From Candidatus Bathyarchaeota archaeon ex4484_205 (GTDB lineage: Archaea > Thermoproteota > EX4484-205): a stretch of DNA of 34,553 nt. The stretch lies in assembly GCA_002255045.1 (NCBI GenBank), contig NJEE01000026.1, forward strand, positions 1-34,553, read 5' to 3'. Below the pieces are notes generated by a model, which was given only the letters and a program-made list of their open reading frames with translations, was not told the origin of the DNA and did no database searches. Position 1 is the first letter of the stretch, and the number at the start of each line of letters is the position of its first letter. The position numbers were made by a program, and so were the translations under genes. Below, one piece after another: positions 22,421 through 33,474 of this stretch.

Positions 22421-25062
22421 TCATGGAGAGATAGGTTTGGTGATAGGATAGAAGGAGAGTTGGGAGCAAGATACTGAGGCAGTTGCAGGCTTTATTATCT
22501 CATTTGGAGAGTTCTCTGCCTCAACATATATTGCAAATTGTAGATCACCACTCACGTCTTTTCGATCTATTTGATATACGTCTATAGGTTGACCATTTAG
22601 CAAGTGGAGTATAACAATATTATCATTCTTTTCCCTGATTTCAAAGGTATGTAAACCTATGGTAGCAGGGATACTTAGAATGTTTTTATCTAGGAATTTG
22701 AATAATATGGAGGCTGAGGCATTTAGAGGACCCCCCTCTTTTGCAGCACCCATCTCCACGAAGACAGAGGTTATATTGACCGAGACACCCCAATTATCAC
22801 CTATATAATGGGTGATATAGGGAAGAGAAGAGTTGGTATTGTAAGATATGTTAGATCGGGAGGAAGATGTAGAAATTTGGAACGGACCATATGTTACATT
22901 ATAATTCACTTTACAGATTACTACCATTGGAATATTGTAGGCGATATAATCATTTAATGAGTCAAACCAGATTTTTCCGGATGAACGCCATACGATCGTG
23001 AAGTGGTTGCCTAGTGAAACTAGGTTTTTTACTTGTGGATAATTATTTCCAAAGACTCCCTCGATCATAATACGTGTGAGAAGAGTATCTCTACGTGGAA
23101 GCCAACGTACAACTCGTTGGTAATTTTGACGACCACCCCATCTGTCATAGACACCTAAGTTTACAAGTTCTGTGAAAAGATTCTTATCCCCAAATCTCTG
23201 TAAAGTTAGATTATGATATATATTCTCACCAGCTATTGGGATGTTATATCCTATTTCAGCCATCCATATCCATTTGACTTCTTCTCCACCCCATGCACCT
23301 ATATCCCATCCAATTGGTGAGAACACAAGAATATAAGACACGTTATATTTCTTTAGAAGAGGTAAAGCAAGAGTATCATTACCCATAAAGATTCTACCAA
23401 TTACAGCTATTTGGGTGCTATTTATTGTCGCATTATCTGCGAGTGAAGGACGGTCCCCTACGCCAGTTATCCAATAACCATAGTCCCACCAAGATAATAT
23501 AACAGAGCCGGGAGGGGTATTATCTCTCAACCAACCCAATGCCTCCAGCCAATCAGGGGCATATGTCTGATAAAGGGATGCTCCTGCAATGGAGACAGGG
23601 GTACCAATTCTCGGCTTAGCTAGGGAGATAGAGATGTAAGAGAAGGAGAGGATGAGGAGAACGATGGATACTACAATGTAGGTAGAATATTTTTCTGACT
23701 TCTCAGTGGGGAGTCTTCTTTTCTTCTTTATGCGTATCTTTGGCTTATAGGAGAGCACAGACTTCGCCAATGAAATTAATTCATGGATCCCCTGTGCACC
23801 CAGAATAGCAACAAAGGGAGCAAGAATAAGACCAATTCTAACCATCGTAGATGCGAAATAGATAGAGAGTAAAAAGCCTAGAGTGACAGTTATTTTCCCT
23901 TCATCTGGATGAAGAAAATTCAGGAAGCTTGCCAATAGGCCTAAAAGCAGAAGAAAACCGTGATCTTGAAACAGGGAGAACCATGTGGATACCTTGTGTT
24001 CTGCAACAGACTCCACAATCGGAATATAGAGACGTGAGGCAGGATTCAATATGGCGTATAATTTCTTTATCAGACCACCAAAGAGACCAGTATAAATTGA
24101 CAGATAGGCAAACAGAAGAAGAATGGGAATTATTGAAAGTAAGATAAATTCACGTCTTATTCTTAATCTGTTTAATATAGATGTTTTTTGAGTTAGGATG
24201 AAATCCAGAGATAGGTATATGGAGAGAACTAGAACTGGGATGAAAGTGACTGATGTCACCATAGAGAGACCCGGACGAGGAACTGAGAGCCCTATTAAAG
24301 TACCAAGAGACATCGTGATGATATAAGAAACTGTTAAGTTTCTATAATTCCCGTGAAGGATAATTAGGAGTATAGATGTGGCTGTAAATAGGGCTATATC
24401 AAAAATATAGGCAGTCCAAGAGATAGCGAGGTAACCATATGTTAGACCAGCCAGAATACTGAAAATAATGGAGGAACGGAGAGATGACTCTTTATTTATA
24501 GCTTTGATGAAAAAAAGGGTTGAAAGAACTATAAGAAAAACCCCTATTGTTTCATGTTTGAAAAACCCAAAATATGTTCTTTCAATGTGGCCACCACTTA
24601 GGGCCAGAAAGAGAGAAATGCAGTAATGAGATAAACAGAAAGTACCGTTATCATACCAGCAACTGGGGGAAAATGAATTGTTACATCCAGTAGGGAGGTC
24701 TTAACGCCAATTATGTTTAGGAGTTGGTAAATTACTGCTGCGGTTAGAGGCAGACCAGGCGGAGAGGAGGCAGCAGCATCACGGCCATAGGGATACCAGC
24801 TCATGGTATCATGCCAATTAAAAAAAGCAAAGAGACCATTATTTGCTATATATTCAGCACATCTATAGTGCCAATAGGGGTCGAATTCAGAGAGATAAAC
24901 ACCCCATCTGAAAGAAACCATTCGAACTACTAGGGCAATCAATAATGTGAGGATGAGGGCAAAATAGTGTAAGATATTCTGCCTTGAAAGATTTAAGGGA
25001 AGAATATTAGTTACACGTGTCAATATATATGATGGCTCGAGATATTTCTTTAGTTTAACCAA
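22421..25062 (-). pseudogene. aglB: Dolichyl/archaeol-phosphate oligosaccharyltransferase AglB/STT3 with one apparent frameshift near 24600-24620
   Basis: N-terminal ORF 24598..25062 (LSEFDPYWHYRCAEYI, SWYPYGRD) stops at ...TAFLSFWP*. The next frame continues FLALSGGHIERTYFGFFKHETIG... without a stop into the 22421..24313 ORF, which contains ILSWWDYGYWITGVGDRPSLADNATIN (WWDYG catalytic motif). Functional status unknown. Confidence 0.88.
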
Positions 25063-25174: not shown

Positions 25175-28144
25175 ATGGAATTGGAAAAAGTGACGGTAGA
25201 TACACAATACGAGCCCCTTAAGTTTGAGAGGGAAGTGAGAGAGTTCTGGAAGAAACATGAGATACCTCGCAGGCTCAGGGAGCTACGTGAAAGAAAGAAC
25301 ATTGGATATATGGGGTATGTGGAAGGACCGCCTACCATGAACGGCTACTGTCATGTGGGACATTCCCGAGGCAGAGCAATCAAAGATTTATGGTATAGAT
25401 TCAACACAATGAGGGGATATTACATATTATATAGAGCAGGATGGGACACGCAGGGGCTCCCAGTAGAGCTACAGGCTGAGAAAGAGCTCGGATTCAGGAA
25501 TAAGAAGGAAGCACTGGAGAAACTGGGAATGGAGAAGTTTATAAAGGAATGTAAGAGAATTGTACATGAATATAATAAACATTGGTTAAGAGTGGATAAG
25601 AAGTTTGGGATGTTTATGGATTATGACAAGGCATATTGGACATATAAGGACGAATATATGGAAAGGGAATGGAGATATCTGAAGGAGGCTTGGAAGAAGA
25701 AGCTTCTGGGAAGAGGATATAGGGTAGTAGCTTATTGTCCAGGATGTCAAACATCCCTAAGTAATGCAGAGGTAGGACTCGGATATGAGGAAGTCCAAGA
25801 TCCCTCAATTCTTTTTAAATTCAAGCTAAGGGGAGAAGACACATATTTGATAATCTGGACAACCATGCCCTTTACACTAATCACCAATGAAATGGTGGCG
25901 GTACACCCCAACGCAGTCTATGCTAAAATTAAGGTTGGAAGTGAGAGTTGGATAATTGTGAAAAACCGTCTCGAGGAAATACTGAAGAAGTTGGGAGTGG
26001 AAGAGTGGGAGATACTAAAAGAGATATACGGGAGGGAACTTGAGGGGAAAAAATACGAATATCCATTTTATGAGGAAGTGCCAAAGCAGAGGGAGTTGGA
26101 GCACCAGAATAAGTATATCCATACAGTTGTATGTGAGGAGTTTGTAGATATAGAGACAGCGACTGGAATAGTACATCTAGCACCAGCAAATGGTGAGGAG
26201 GATTTTGAAGCTGCACAGAAGAGGGGGGTACCTATTTTCGTACCATATGATGATGAGGTCAAATTTACAGAGGAGGCAGGGAATTTTGGGGGAGAATTTG
26301 CGAGAGACTGCGATAAAATAGTGATAGAAAAACTGAGGAAAAAAAGTCTTTTGCTCCAGGAGGAGACCATAACACACGAATATCCAACTTGCTGGAGATC
26401 ACATCATAAATTGGTATGGTTAGCTAGAAATGAATACTTCCTATGGACGGACAAAATAAATGACACAATTGTAAAGGCTGCAGAGAAAGTTGAATATTTC
26501 TATGAACCCCCAAAGAACAGATTCCTCAGCTTTCTTCGTGAGGCCAAACCTTGGTGTATATCGAGAGAGAGAACATGGGGAACACCTCTTCCTATATTTA
26601 AATGCAAAAAATGTGGAGAAACTGAATTGATAGCATCAAGAAGGGAGATAATAGAGAGAGGTGTGAGACTCCCAGATGGTGAAGATTTTGAACTTCATAG
26701 GCCGTGGATAGATAGAATAGAGCTACGTTGCATCAAATGTGGAGGGATAATGAAGAGGGAACCTTTCGTACTTGATACCTGGCACAATAGTGGTGCTGCC
26801 CCTTATGCGAGTCTTAGTGATGAGGAGTTTGAGAGGTACGTACCAGTAGAGTTTCTGGTGGAGGGAATAGATCAAACAAGAGGATGGGCGAATACCTTAC
26901 TCCTCTTACATGTAATACTAACGGGAAAGGCAGAGCCACCCTACAAAGCATTTCTCTTCTACGGATTAGTGTTGGATAGAAAGGGAAGAAAGATGGCGAA
27001 GAGTTTAGGGAATGTAGTACTTACAGAAGAGGTAGTAGACAATCATTCAGCAGATTTGTATAGATTTTATCTACTTTGGAAGACAGCTCCAATCGAGAAC
27101 ATGAACTTCGATATAGAGGAGATGTGGAAAAGACCTTACCAGGTTTTAAATACATTATTTAATCTCAATAAGCTCTTTCTGCAGAATGCCGGATATGACA
27201 ACTATACTCCATTGAAGATAGAGAATATCAAACGTTCCTCATTGAGGGTGGAGGATCTTTGGATATTATCGAGGTTACAGGGAGTAGTAAAGATTGTGAC
27301 GGAGAGTTTTGAGAAGGCCAGATATCATGTTGCATTGCGTGAAATGGAGAAATTTATAATAGAAGATTTGAGCAGAAAGTATATACCAATTATAAGAAGG
27401 GATCTATGGGAGGAAACAGAGAAGGCAACAGAGAGGAGGAAGATAATTTATACAGTACTATGGAAAGTTCTAAGAACACTTAATAGATTGCTGAATCCTG
27501 TAGCTCCCTTCCTCATAGAGGCAATTCATCAAAAAATTCATAGGATATTTGATAGAGAGCTACCTGAGAGTATTAATTTCGACAACTGGCCGGAGGTGGA
27601 GGAGATATGGATGAACACAGAGCTGGAGAAGGTGATGGAACAAACTTTCAAAATAATTGAGAGTATCCTCGCAGCGAGGCAGAATGCAGGAATTAAAAGA
27701 AGGTGGCCTTTGAAGTGGGTGAATATAGAGACAGATATGAATATAATGCCTACATTAGAGGTCATAAAGAGACTTACCAATGTCAAAGAGGTACTACTCA
27801 ATCAGAAGATAGAGGAAGAGAATGTAGAAATCGTTGAGGGGGATAAATATAAGATTTACTTATTTGTAGCAAGGGATGAGGAACTCATTTACGAGGGACT
27901 GGTCAGAGATATCGCTAGGAGGATCCAAGCACTCCGTAAAGAGAGAGGATATGAACCCACATATATACTTAGTATGGTGGAGATTTATGGAATAGAGAAA
28001 GAGTTAAGGAGATTAGAGAGGTATAGGGTGGAGTTAAAGAAACTTGTGAGAGCAAGAGAAGTAAAATTTGTAACTGAAAAAGAGGGAAATGAGTGGAGAA
28101 AATACAAGGTAAATGGAAAAACTATAGAGATAAGAATACAATAG
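25175..28144 (+). CDS. ileS: Isoleucyl-tRNA synthetase
   Basis: YVEGPPTMNGYCHVGHSRGRAIKDLWYRFNTMRGYYILYRAGWDTQGLPVE; KMAKSLGN; IDQTRGWANTLL; 989 aa. Confidence 0.95.
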   Translation: MELEKVTVDTQYEPLKFEREVREFWKKHEIPRRLRELRERKNIGYMGYVEGPPTMNGYCHVGHSRGRAIKDLWYRFNTMRGYYILYRAGWDTQGLPVELQAEKELGFRNKKEALEKLGMEKFIKECKRIVHEYNKHWLRVDKKFGMFMDYDKAYWTYKDEYMEREWRYLKEAWKKKLLGRGYRVVAYCPGCQTSLSNAEVGLGYEEVQDPSILFKFKLRGEDTYLIIWTTMPFTLITNEMVAVHPNAVYAKIKVGSESWIIVKNRLEEILKKLGVEEWEILKEIYGRELEGKKYEYPFYEEVPKQRELEHQNKYIHTVVCEEFVDIETATGIVHLAPANGEEDFEAAQKRGVPIFVPYDDEVKFTEEAGNFGGEFARDCDKIVIEKLRKKSLLLQEETITHEYPTCWRSHHKLVWLARNEYFLWTDKINDTIVKAAEKVEYFYEPPKNRFLSFLREAKPWCISRERTWGTPLPIFKCKKCGETELIASRREIIERGVRLPDGEDFELHRPWIDRIELRCIKCGGIMKREPFVLDTWHNSGAAPYASLSDEEFERYVPVEFLVEGIDQTRGWANTLLLLHVILTGKAEPPYKAFLFYGLVLDRKGRKMAKSLGNVVLTEEVVDNHSADLYRFYLLWKTAPIENMNFDIEEMWKRPYQVLNTLFNLNKLFLQNAGYDNYTPLKIENIKRSSLRVEDLWILSRLQGVVKIVTESFEKARYHVALREMEKFIIEDLSRKYIPIIRRDLWEETEKATERRKIIYTVLWKVLRTLNRLLNPVAPFLIEAIHQKIHRIFDRELPESINFDNWPEVEEIWMNTELEKVMEQTFKIIESILAARQNAGIKRRWPLKWVNIETDMNIMPTLEVIKRLTNVKEVLLNQKIEEENVEIVEGDKYKIYLFVARDEELIYEGLVRDIARRIQALRKERGYEPTYILSMVEIYGIEKELRRLERYRVELKKLVRAREVKFVTEKEGNEWRKYKVNGKTIEIRIQ

Positions 28145-28430: not shown

Positions 28431-28850
28431 ATGAGAAGGGACAGAGGGAGCATCTCCATATTTCACAACTTGAGAGGAATGCTAAATAAGTACCTTGCAT
28501 ATTTCGTAGTATTAGCTTCTTGTTTTCTATTAGGAGGAGGAATATATCTTCTGGTATATAGACCGGGAATCTTTATAAGGGGGGCTGGGGGACTAGGTGT
28601 CACCTTCATCTATAGAGGAGATACACTTTCACAACTCACCTTAGAGGGATTTTTTGTAGGATTCATGTATCTCATTGCATTGACAGGGTTATTCATTATG
28701 GTGAGAAGCAGAAGATTTATAGATAATCCATCAAGAATGACCAGAGACTTCTTTATCGGTTTTTCGCTAGCAATCATTGGAAGCTTGTTGATTTTCATGA
28801 TAGGATATTGGAAGGTTCCCTATTTGTATGGACGAATTTTTGGGATATAG
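28431..28850 (+). CDS. Small multi-TM membrane protein; candidate OSTC/Ost3-Ost6-like OST subunit
   Basis: 139 aa with about four hydrophobic segments. FLLGGGIYLLVYRPG, YRGDTLSQLTLEGFFVGFMYLIALTGLFIMVRSR, RDFFIGFSLAIIGSLLIFMIGYWKVPYLYG align by eye to eukaryotic OSTC. Confidence 0.5.
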   Translation: MRRDRGSISIFHNLRGMLNKYLAYFVVLASCFLLGGGIYLLVYRPGIFIRGAGGLGVTFIYRGDTLSQLTLEGFFVGFMYLIALTGLFIMVRSRRFIDNPSRMTRDFFIGFSLAIIGSLLIFMIGYWKVPYLYGRIFGI

Positions 28851-28854
28851 AAGA

Positions 28855-29349
28855 TTACCAGGGATTTTTCTTCAAGCCTAGCTTATATGCAAAAAGGTTG
28901 GAGGATATGTGAAGTAGAAATGTGATGATATTTATTATTAGGAAGTCCCACAGAGATAGCGGAAATGGGAGAATAGGATAAGAAAAGATTATGGAGACCC
29001 ATAGGAAGTCGAGCTGATCAACTGGAGGAAATGGAGCACCAGGTTTCAGAGAAAATCTACGTTTGATGAAGGAACCAGCGAGATCACCCATGAGAGCACC
29101 AAAACTTAGAAGAAAGCCGAGTAAGGGATGCAGTTGAACTGACCCTACGATAGAGCCGACAACTATACCGGCTATGAAACCCTTTATAGTCTTATTGGGC
29201 CCAAATAGAGGATTATTATCCAAGAATAAACGACCACCATCTAAAGGTTTCCCACCACCAAAAATAACTGCACTAGCATTTGCTACATAGGCTGGTAGAA
29301 ACAGGTAAATCAACTTGGCAATATGAATAAGGGCATCTAGGTTATTCAT
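28855..29349 (-). CDS. carS: CDP-archaeol synthase CarS (DUF46)
   Basis: VANASAVIFGGGKPLDGGRLFLDNNPLFGPNKTIKGFIAGIVVGSIVGS and GDLAGSFIKRRFSLKPGAPFPPVDQLDF. Confidence 0.93.
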   Translation of the reverse strand: MNNLDALIHIAKLIYLFLPAYVANASAVIFGGGKPLDGGRLFLDNNPLFGPNKTIKGFIAGIVVGSIVGSVQLHPLLGFLLSFGALMGDLAGSFIKRRFSLKPGAPFPPVDQLDFLWVSIIFSYPILPFPLSLWDFLIINIITFLLHISSNLFAYKLGLKKNPW

Positions 29350-31200: not shown

Positions 31201-33474
31201 ATGTGGAGGACGTATTTCCCATATAGGGAAATTAGAAAATTTCAGGATGTATATGCAGAAAAAATTTACAATACCCTCAGAGAGGGTAGAAATATAGTTA
31301 TTCAGGCGGTGAATGGGCTCGGCAAAACGGCTGCAATACTTTCAGCAACATTACCTCTTGTTGAAAAGGTGGGGAACATAATTTATTTAACTCGGACAAT
31401 AATGCAGGGGACACATGTCCTGGACGAACTCCAAAAAATAGCTGAAAAAAGAGGCGTAGATGGAATTCTATTGGTTGGAAAGAATAAAATGTGCCCACTT
31501 AAGAAATTACGAAATTTAGCAGAAGATTATGACACCTTTAATACATTATGTGAATATCTTAGAAAGACCGGGAGATGTGAATATTTTTCGAACTATAGTG
31601 TAGATAAGCAGGAAGAATTAATGGGAGTAATATACCCGAGGGACTTAATGAAAATTTCCAAGGATAATGAAATATGTCCGTATTATCTTATGAGGAAGGT
31701 ATTATATGAGAAGAATGTAGTTGTAGCAAATTACCTACATGTTATCAATCCTTTTCTTAGGAGAATGTTGCCAGTTAGCCGAAATAGTGTCATCATTTTT
31801 GATGAATGTGTTACAGGAGATACACTTGTGAAAATAAACGAGAGATTTGTAGAGATAGGTAAATTCGTGGAAAAAATGTCTGAGAAGGGAAAGTACACCA
31901 TGGTTAAAGGTGATTTCCATATTGAAACGAGGGGAGGGAGGGGCAGTGCTTCTATTCGAGGCGTGTGGAGGAAGAGATATAGTGGAAGTATTTATAAAAT
32001 TTGTACTGACAAATGTACAGTAAGGGTAACAGAGAATACTTTAATATGGACTAGAAATGGATGGAAATATCCAAAATTTCTAAAGAAAGGGGAACAGATC
32101 TCCGTAATATTAGAAAAAGGAAAAAGAAAAATTGAGAGAATAAGTAAAATAGTAAGAGAGTGCAAGAAGGATGAGGATGTTTATGATTTGAATGTCTCAC
32201 CAACTCATTGTTTCTATGGAGGAGGAATTCTCGTCCATAATTCCCATAACCTCCCAGAAATTATAATGGATAATGCTGGAATTAAAATTAGGAGAGGAAC
32301 CTTTGAATTAGCACGAATCGAGGCTGAAAAATATGGATATGTGGGCATGAGTAGAATACTCTCTTACATCACTGAAGAAATTTGTCAATATACGGAAAAA
32401 GAGGAAGGAGTTCTTGAAATTCCAAAAATTCTTAGGACTATACAATTTAGGTACAAAACACTCCCCTTGATTGTTCAAAATATAATATACCTCGGGGAGA
32501 GAATAAAAATACTTAAATTTGATGAACAGAAACGTGCAGTCTCACACGTATACAAAGTTGGAAGATTTTTGGAGAGAGTGTTACATTTGAGGCCCTGGGA
32601 AGTATGTCTGCATTTTGAAGAAAATGGAATAAAGTATTTGGAGCTCCTTCCACTAGATCCTTCACCCTTTATGCGTCATGTGCTTCACAATATAAAAAAC
32701 GCTGTGTTCACATCAGGAACTTTAGAACCTATAGAGGCCTTTAATGAGATTCTTGGACTGAAAGGAAACAGTGAGGGAGTAGTTGTACCTTCTCCATATA
32801 CACCTGAAAGATTGTTAAAAGTGATAATAGAGGGAGTAACTACAAGATTCGAATTGAGAGATGAAAAAATGTTCAGACGAATCATAGAGTATATAAGCAA
32901 GATCGTGGAGCACACGCCTGGAAATGTTGGTGTATTTCCTGCTAGTTATGATGTTCTTGAGAGATTAAGAGATGAGGGATTGGAGGATTACATTGATAGG
33001 AAAGTCTTCTGGGATACACAAACTAATTTCTGGTTAAGCGAGACCACCATCAAAAGGTTTAAGGAGAAGGGGGATAAGGAGGGTAGTGTTTTGGTAACAG
33101 TGATTGGAGGAAGGGTGGCTGAGGGGGTAGATTTTCCAGCAGGAGAAATGAGAACAGCGATAGTAGTGGGAATACCCTTTGCATCACCTTCTGTAAAACT
33201 GGATGAAAGGGTGAAATTTTTAGAAAGAAAATATCCAGGAAGAGGAAAAGATCTGGGATATATACTTCCTGCAATAAGAAAGGCGTCTCAGGCAGCAGGT
33301 AGGGCGGTACGATCTCCTCGAGAAAAGGCAGCAATCTTCTTTTTAGACGAAAGATATAGAAATGGAAGATGCTTCAAATACCTGCCCAAATGGCTGAAGG
33401 AAAATATGATAATTATTAATCAGAAGAGAAAAGTTGCAATGATACTAAAGAACTTTTGGAGTATAGGAAGATGA
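31201..33474 (+). CDS. xpd: XPD/Rad3-family FeS DNA helicase, interrupted by an intein
   Basis: P-loop VIQAVNGLGKTAAILSA; FeS cysteines (MCPLKK, TLCEYL, GRCEYF, ICPYYL); Walker B FDE...SHNLPE split by an intein; HRD-like QAAGRAVRSPREKAAIFFLDERY. Confidence 0.93.
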   Translation: MWRTYFPYREIRKFQDVYAEKIYNTLREGRNIVIQAVNGLGKTAAILSATLPLVEKVGNIIYLTRTIMQGTHVLDELQKIAEKRGVDGILLVGKNKMCPLKKLRNLAEDYDTFNTLCEYLRKTGRCEYFSNYSVDKQEELMGVIYPRDLMKISKDNEICPYYLMRKVLYEKNVVVANYLHVINPFLRRMLPVSRNSVIIFDECVTGDTLVKINERFVEIGKFVEKMSEKGKYTMVKGDFHIETRGGRGSASIRGVWRKRYSGSIYKICTDKCTVRVTENTLIWTRNGWKYPKFLKKGEQISVILEKGKRKIERISKIVRECKKDEDVYDLNVSPTHCFYGGGILVHNSHNLPEIIMDNAGIKIRRGTFELARIEAEKYGYVGMSRILSYITEEICQYTEKEEGVLEIPKILRTIQFRYKTLPLIVQNIIYLGERIKILKFDEQKRAVSHVYKVGRFLERVLHLRPWEVCLHFEENGIKYLELLPLDPSPFMRHVLHNIKNAVFTSGTLEPIEAFNEILGLKGNSEGVVVPSPYTPERLLKVIIEGVTTRFELRDEKMFRRIIEYISKIVEHTPGNVGVFPASYDVLERLRDEGLEDYIDRKVFWDTQTNFWLSETTIKRFKEKGDKEGSVLVTVIGGRVAEGVDFPAGEMRTAIVVGIPFASPSVKLDERVKFLERKYPGRGKDLGYILPAIRKASQAAGRAVRSPREKAAIFFLDERYRNGRCFKYLPKWLKENMIIINQKRKVAMILKNFWSIGR
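31807..32241 (+). other. Mini-intein (145 aa, no endonuclease) inserted between DE and SH of the DEAH/DESH box
   Basis: Starts CVTGDTLVKI (block A), block-B-like KCTVRVTENTLIWTRNGWK, block F VYDLNVSPTHCFYGGG, block G ILVHN followed by Ser (+1). Excision yields VIIFDE-SHNLPE in frame. Confidence 0.93.

Follow-up and report, generated by a model that had tools for sequence, protein, structure and literature searches.

An OSTC-like membrane protein encoded near aglB is a probable oligosaccharyltransferase subunit in a bathyarchaeal lineage

In the human oligosaccharyltransferase (OST) complex OST-A, the membrane protein OSTC (DC2) binds STT3A specifically and, together with KCP2, joins the enzyme to ribosome-bound Sec61; MAGT1 binds STT3B (PMC7226087). 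The β-hairpin of OSTC touches both the Sec61 plug and the substrate (PMC12804085). The archaeal OST is described in reviews as a single polypeptide, AglB (PMC7226087, PMC8993221), and a 2016 search with hidden Markov models turned up no archaeal proteins convincingly homologous to the accessory subunits (PMC4973528). Archaeal Ost1 and Ost3/6 are already known from TACK and Asgard lineages: the accessible text of one study reports Ost1, Ost3 and five further subunits in Asgard archaea (PMC10307638), and that of a 2024 paper states OST1 and OST3/6 for eukaryotes, TACK and Asgard archaea (PMC11417166). In these portions of the two papers it is the existence of the homologues that is stated, and not a linkage to aglB across families or the lineage considered here. 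An earlier note on the DNA studied below, made from the sequence alone, had stated that Ost3/Ost6-like proteins are reported in Asgard archaea and that most archaeal AglB is thought to act alone.

The window, by which we mean the whole stretch of DNA that was analyzed, comprises 34,553 nucleotides from Candidatus Bathyarchaeota archaeon ex4484_205 (contig NJEE01000026.1). An open reading frame (ORF) on its plus strand (28431–28850, start codon ATG) encodes a protein of 139 aa, which the earlier note had proposed as an archaeal homologue of OSTC and Ost3/Ost6. The multi-pass membrane protein it described is exactly this ORF, with all three of the stretches it had quoted, and the real OSTC sequence carries the motifs it had given for OSTC, in the same order. 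Hydropathy predicts three transmembrane (TM) segments (approximately residues 20–43, 69–93, and 104–129), with basic regions at the N-terminus and in the TM2–TM3 loop, and this three-segment arrangement is that of OSTC. The ORF is more than a chance reading frame, because homologous ORFs are found, among the matches listed, in 151 of the 299 genomes of the phylum (E ≤ 1e-4). The protein is OSTC-like, since the thioredoxin domain found in Ost3/Ost6 is absent from it. Its annotation as an OSTC-like membrane protein of the OST3/OST6 superfamily is based on the ORF, a family profile searched against the PDB, an AlphaFold model, and Foldseek.

The single sequence gave no matches in the PDB using phmmer and matched no NCBIfam model, because the protein is too divergent when taken alone. 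Against Pfam it reached PF04756 (OST3_OST6) with 19.3 bits (E = 8e-4), below the curated cut-off of 27 bits, over positions 178–275 of the 294 in the profile, which correspond to the membrane part. Relatives were gathered from genomes of the phylum and aligned (27 sequences in alignment A1, 98 in A3), and the two profiles were searched against 177,635 distinct PDB sequences. OSTC (7.8e-14 with 27 sequences, 8.7e-16 with 98) and MAGT1 (1.7e-6 and 3.7e-8) were the only significant matches; all others had E > 0.3, the first unrelated proteins appearing at 0.36 and 1.2, respectively. PF04756 was matched by 24 of the 27 family members (E ≤ 1, best 6e-9), compared to five for the next Pfam family, and several Asgard members exceeded its cut-off. 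The family therefore matches the OST3/OST6 clan, and no other membrane family better, two points on which the earlier note had proposed that its identification be judged. A scan for conserved peptides found no stretch of the family that was conserved enough. Weak matches in families f7 and f21 (E of about 1e-3 with the first profile) mostly failed the 1e-4 threshold with the wider profile and were set aside. A second PF04756 match in the same genome (contig C108) proved to be an ordinary thioredoxin-like protein and was dropped as evidence.

Of the positions that are most strongly conserved in the archaeal family, eight (G36, Y39, P45, Q68, E72, G86, G110, and K128) are identical in OSTC, and MAGT1 is identical at seven of these, with tryptophan in place of Y39. 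An AlphaFold model built from the 98 sequences (pLDDT 90.1, pTM 0.78) was compared with 350,542 chains using Foldseek. Ranks 1 to 8 were taken exclusively by chains of OSTC, yeast Ost3/Ost6, or MAGT1, each with a probability of 1.00, followed at rank 9 by an unrelated protein (E 2.5). This model supersedes an earlier one from 27 sequences (pLDDT 75), whose top four matches were OSTC with weaker E-values. Short strands are predicted in the extracellular loop, where OSTC has its β-hairpin. A small hydrophobic three-helix protein might resemble OSTC by chance, its link to aglB reflecting nothing more than the conservation of a gene block, and both the 19.3 bits of the single sequence against PF04756 and the conserved housekeeping genes of the region would suit such a reading. 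However, the family profiles reach OSTC with E-values of 1e-13 to 1e-15, and the top PDB matches, like the top eight fold matches, are all OST subunits. Chance likeness is refuted as far as homology is concerned, the profile and fold matches being confined to OST subunits, and as an account of the whole locus we find it extremely improbable. Judged by profile comparison and predicted fold, homology to the OST3/OST6/OSTC superfamily is settled, as the earlier note had suggested, and it is the firmest element of the argument.

Within this superfamily, OSTC resembles the archaeal protein most closely. The two are of nearly the same size (149 aa in OSTC, 139 aa here), have three TM helices and the same predicted fold, lack a thioredoxin domain, and share the motifs GG-x-x-Y...P, Q...E, G, G, and K in order, with an identity of about 22–24% over the structural match. 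Yeast Ost3/Ost6 and human TUSC3/MAGT1 have a membrane part with the same fold and most of the conserved positions, but they carry an N-terminal thioredoxin domain with a CxxC motif that is absent from the archaeal protein, and their profile score is weaker. They also have four TM helices, one more than the archaeal protein. The archaeal homologues recovered span about 105–206 aa, including those of Thor-, Loki-, Heimdall-, and Njordarchaeota, and none has a thioredoxin domain. The Asgard members recovered here belong to the same family as the Ost3/6 homologues reported from Asgard and TACK archaea (accessible text of PMC10307638 and PMC11417166) and consist of the membrane part only.

Score and size favor OSTC over Ost3/Ost6, although sequence comparison does no more than suggest orthology to OSTC, and the archaeal proteins may instead be an outgroup to both eukaryotic families. 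Could the protein instead be a strict Ost3/Ost6 orthologue, an oxidoreductase subunit whose thioredoxin domain was lost or is supplied separately? The Pfam family and the membrane fold are the same, and a thioredoxin-like protein is encoded elsewhere in the genome (L002). Yet the sequence of that free protein shows no membrane segment. The archaeal and Asgard homologues, moreover, are short and without the thioredoxin part, and the profile scores higher for OSTC than for MAGT1; we therefore consider strict orthology very unlikely. In the simplest reading, the membrane module would be ancestral and the thioredoxin domain a later gain.

In the window, aglB starts near position 25062 on the minus strand, 3.4 kb upstream of the OSTC-like gene, and ileS (25175–28144, plus strand) lies between them, an arrangement that had been described correctly in the earlier note. 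A gap of 286 bases separates ileS from the OSTC-like ORF downstream of it, and one of four bases separates this ORF from the end of carS (28855–29349, minus strand), which encodes CDP-archaeol synthase and is the convergent neighbor of the OSTC-like gene in many lineages. The aglB gene is split by one frame change. Its N-terminal part (24598–25062, minus strand; PF02516, E = 1.5e-15) and its main C-terminal part (22421–24700, minus strand, with an open frame listed at 22424–24700; Pfam AglB core-like and STT3), which holds the WWDYGYW motif and the double sequon DNATINST, lie in different frames that overlap at 24598–24700, and the rest reads as one AglB. The break is likely a sequencing or assembly error, a real frameshift being possible. 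The assembly (G000) contains a second STT3/AglB on contig C95 (7473–8525; L080:7305–9215), which lacks the double sequon of the AglB in the window and may be either a contaminating contig or a true paralogue.

Proximity to aglB extends well beyond this genome. Among the matches listed, 76 of 88 OSTC-like/aglB pairs located on one contig were within 10 kb of each other; these close pairs represent 20 families, and 71 of the 76 are divergent. Named organisms, reached through their AglB, place the linked pair in Brockarchaeota, Bathyarchaeota, Caldarchaeum, Pelearchaeum, and Njordarchaeum, and also in a Thorarchaeote. The OSTC-like protein, linked or unlinked, is further encoded in genomes of Wolframiiraptor, Culexarchaeum, Nezhaarchaeota, and Methanomethylicota. 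What separates the two genes varies: ileS in the window and in families f18, f20, f40, and f48, topoisomerase IA in the examined members of f4, f5, f26, and f55. In f3, topoisomerase IA adjoins the OSTC-like gene. In f12, f14, f16, and f30, the pair is mostly head to head, 300–600 bases apart, and carS and clp1 are often not beside it.

The region around the pair is conserved and comprises pcna, priL, priS, L44e, eIF2-alpha-like, psmG-like, and aglB, followed by the OSTC-like gene, carS, clp1, and an XPD-like helicase gene. Because the pair sits in such a region (pcna, priSL, L44e, aglB, carS, clp1), part of its linkage is the background of a larger gene block, and proximity alone is no proof of joint function. 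Even so, the OSTC-like gene stays next to aglB at loci where neither ileS nor carS nor clp1 adjoins the pair (for example L077, L094, and L095), which argues against the linkage being a mere by-product of the block.

To what extent do the two proteins occur together? We surveyed 299 genomes of the phylum, with thresholds of E ≤ 1e-4 for the OSTC-like protein and 1e-5 for STT3. Among the matches listed, STT3 occurs in 265 genomes and the OSTC-like protein in 151, of which 149 also encode STT3 (Fisher p = 5e-9, kinship ignored). Co-occurrence, on which the earlier note had made its proposal depend, is thus nearly complete in this direction. In the other direction, 116 of the 299 genomes have STT3 without the OSTC-like protein, among the matches listed, and AglB therefore has no general need of it. 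Two genomes (G012 and G240) encode OSTC-like and Ost1-like proteins without an STT3 match at 1e-5; aglB is probably missing or divergent in them. The double sequon of AglB, considered as a marker of a multi-subunit OST, was found in 27 of 33 linked cases and in 10 of 26 without the OSTC-like protein, a weak association that we did not use as support.

A homologue of a further OST subunit, Ost1 (ribophorin I), was found in these archaea. Of 61 relatives, 18 scored above the cut-off of Pfam Ribophorin_I; none of the 14 control genomes did so, and the genome from which the window comes gave no match. A profile of the archaeal Ost1-like proteins matched human RPN1 (3.6e-27) and yeast Ost1 (4.2e-12) in the PDB. 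In the window's own genome, it detected a 538-aa Ost1-like protein on contig C12 (about 25720–27333; L261:1721–3334), with a hydrophobic N-terminus followed by a ribophorin-like region, another hydrophobic segment farther on, and a C-terminal part rich in charged, heptad-like stretches. This member is divergent, because alone it has no match in Pfam. Contig C12 likely comes from the same organism as the window; this is not certain because the genome is 90% complete with 6.89% contamination. Ost1-like proteins occur in 113 of the 299 genomes, and 112 of these also encode the OSTC-like protein, among the matches listed. We conclude that the OSTC-like and Ost1-like proteins travel together. The Ost1-like gene, by contrast, is far from aglB: in the single-contig genome G075, for example, they are 1.57 Mb apart in coordinates, or about 0.58 Mb by the shorter way round should the genome be circular.

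These distributions bear on a further alternative, in which the homology to OSTC/Ost3/Ost6 is real but the archaeal protein is no OST subunit, acting instead as a general SecY- or membrane-associated factor that was recruited to OST later by the eukaryotic lineage. OSTC itself also touches Sec61 (PMC12804085), and many archaea have AglB without the OSTC-like protein. However, among the matches listed, the OSTC-like protein occurs without STT3 in just 2 of 151 genomes and its linkage to aglB extends across 20 families; it also co-occurs with a homologue of Ost1, another OST subunit. We regard recruitment from a general factor as unlikely. The best explanation, to which we assign a probability of roughly 0.8, is that the protein is an archaeal OSTC-like subunit of oligosaccharyltransferase, whose homologues are OSTC (DC2) and the membrane part of Ost3/Ost6/MAGT1.

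The archaeal OST, usually described as a lone AglB, thus probably has partners in these lineages, and we infer a physical complex of AglB, OSTC-like, and Ost1-like subunits. The earlier note had proposed a two-subunit OST; the OSTC-like protein stands as the partner candidate, and the count is probably too low, given that the genome encodes a divergent Ost1/ribophorin I as well. By analogy with OSTC on STT3A, the OSTC-like protein would pack on the membrane helices of AglB, with its extracellular loop close to both the SecY channel and the acceptor peptide. It could in this way bring AglB to SecY, so that proteins would be glycosylated while crossing the membrane and export would be coupled to N-glycosylation. 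We lean, at slightly better than even odds, toward a broader scenario: a multi-subunit OST of these three proteins in many TACK archaea, docked to SecY, that would already have existed before TACK, Asgard archaea, and eukaryotes separated. In this scenario, the ancestral Ost3/Ost6/OSTC subunit would have been without thioredoxin, the domain being gained on the eukaryotic side, and lineages with AglB alone would have lost the partners.

A literature search covering mainly open-access papers found no account of linkage to aglB across families and no description of the three-gene co-occurrence or of a thioredoxin-less OSTC-like archaeal form, an absence that is weak evidence. Should the OSTC-like and Ost1-like proteins prove to be OST subunits across much of the phylum, the multi-subunit enzyme would be pre-eukaryotic and would exist outside Asgard archaea as well. 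A minimal OST of two or three subunits would then be open to structural study, and the distribution would point to the archaea worth testing and explain why lineages that lack the partners would not reveal them.

Farther along the window, the XPD/Rad3-like helicase gene (31201–33474, plus strand) contains an intein of approximately 145 aa at the DExH box (about residues 203–347), so small that there is no room for a homing endonuclease. It scores 33.5 bits with NCBIfam TIGR01445, over the cut-off, and 27.9 bits with Pfam Intein_splicing, below it.
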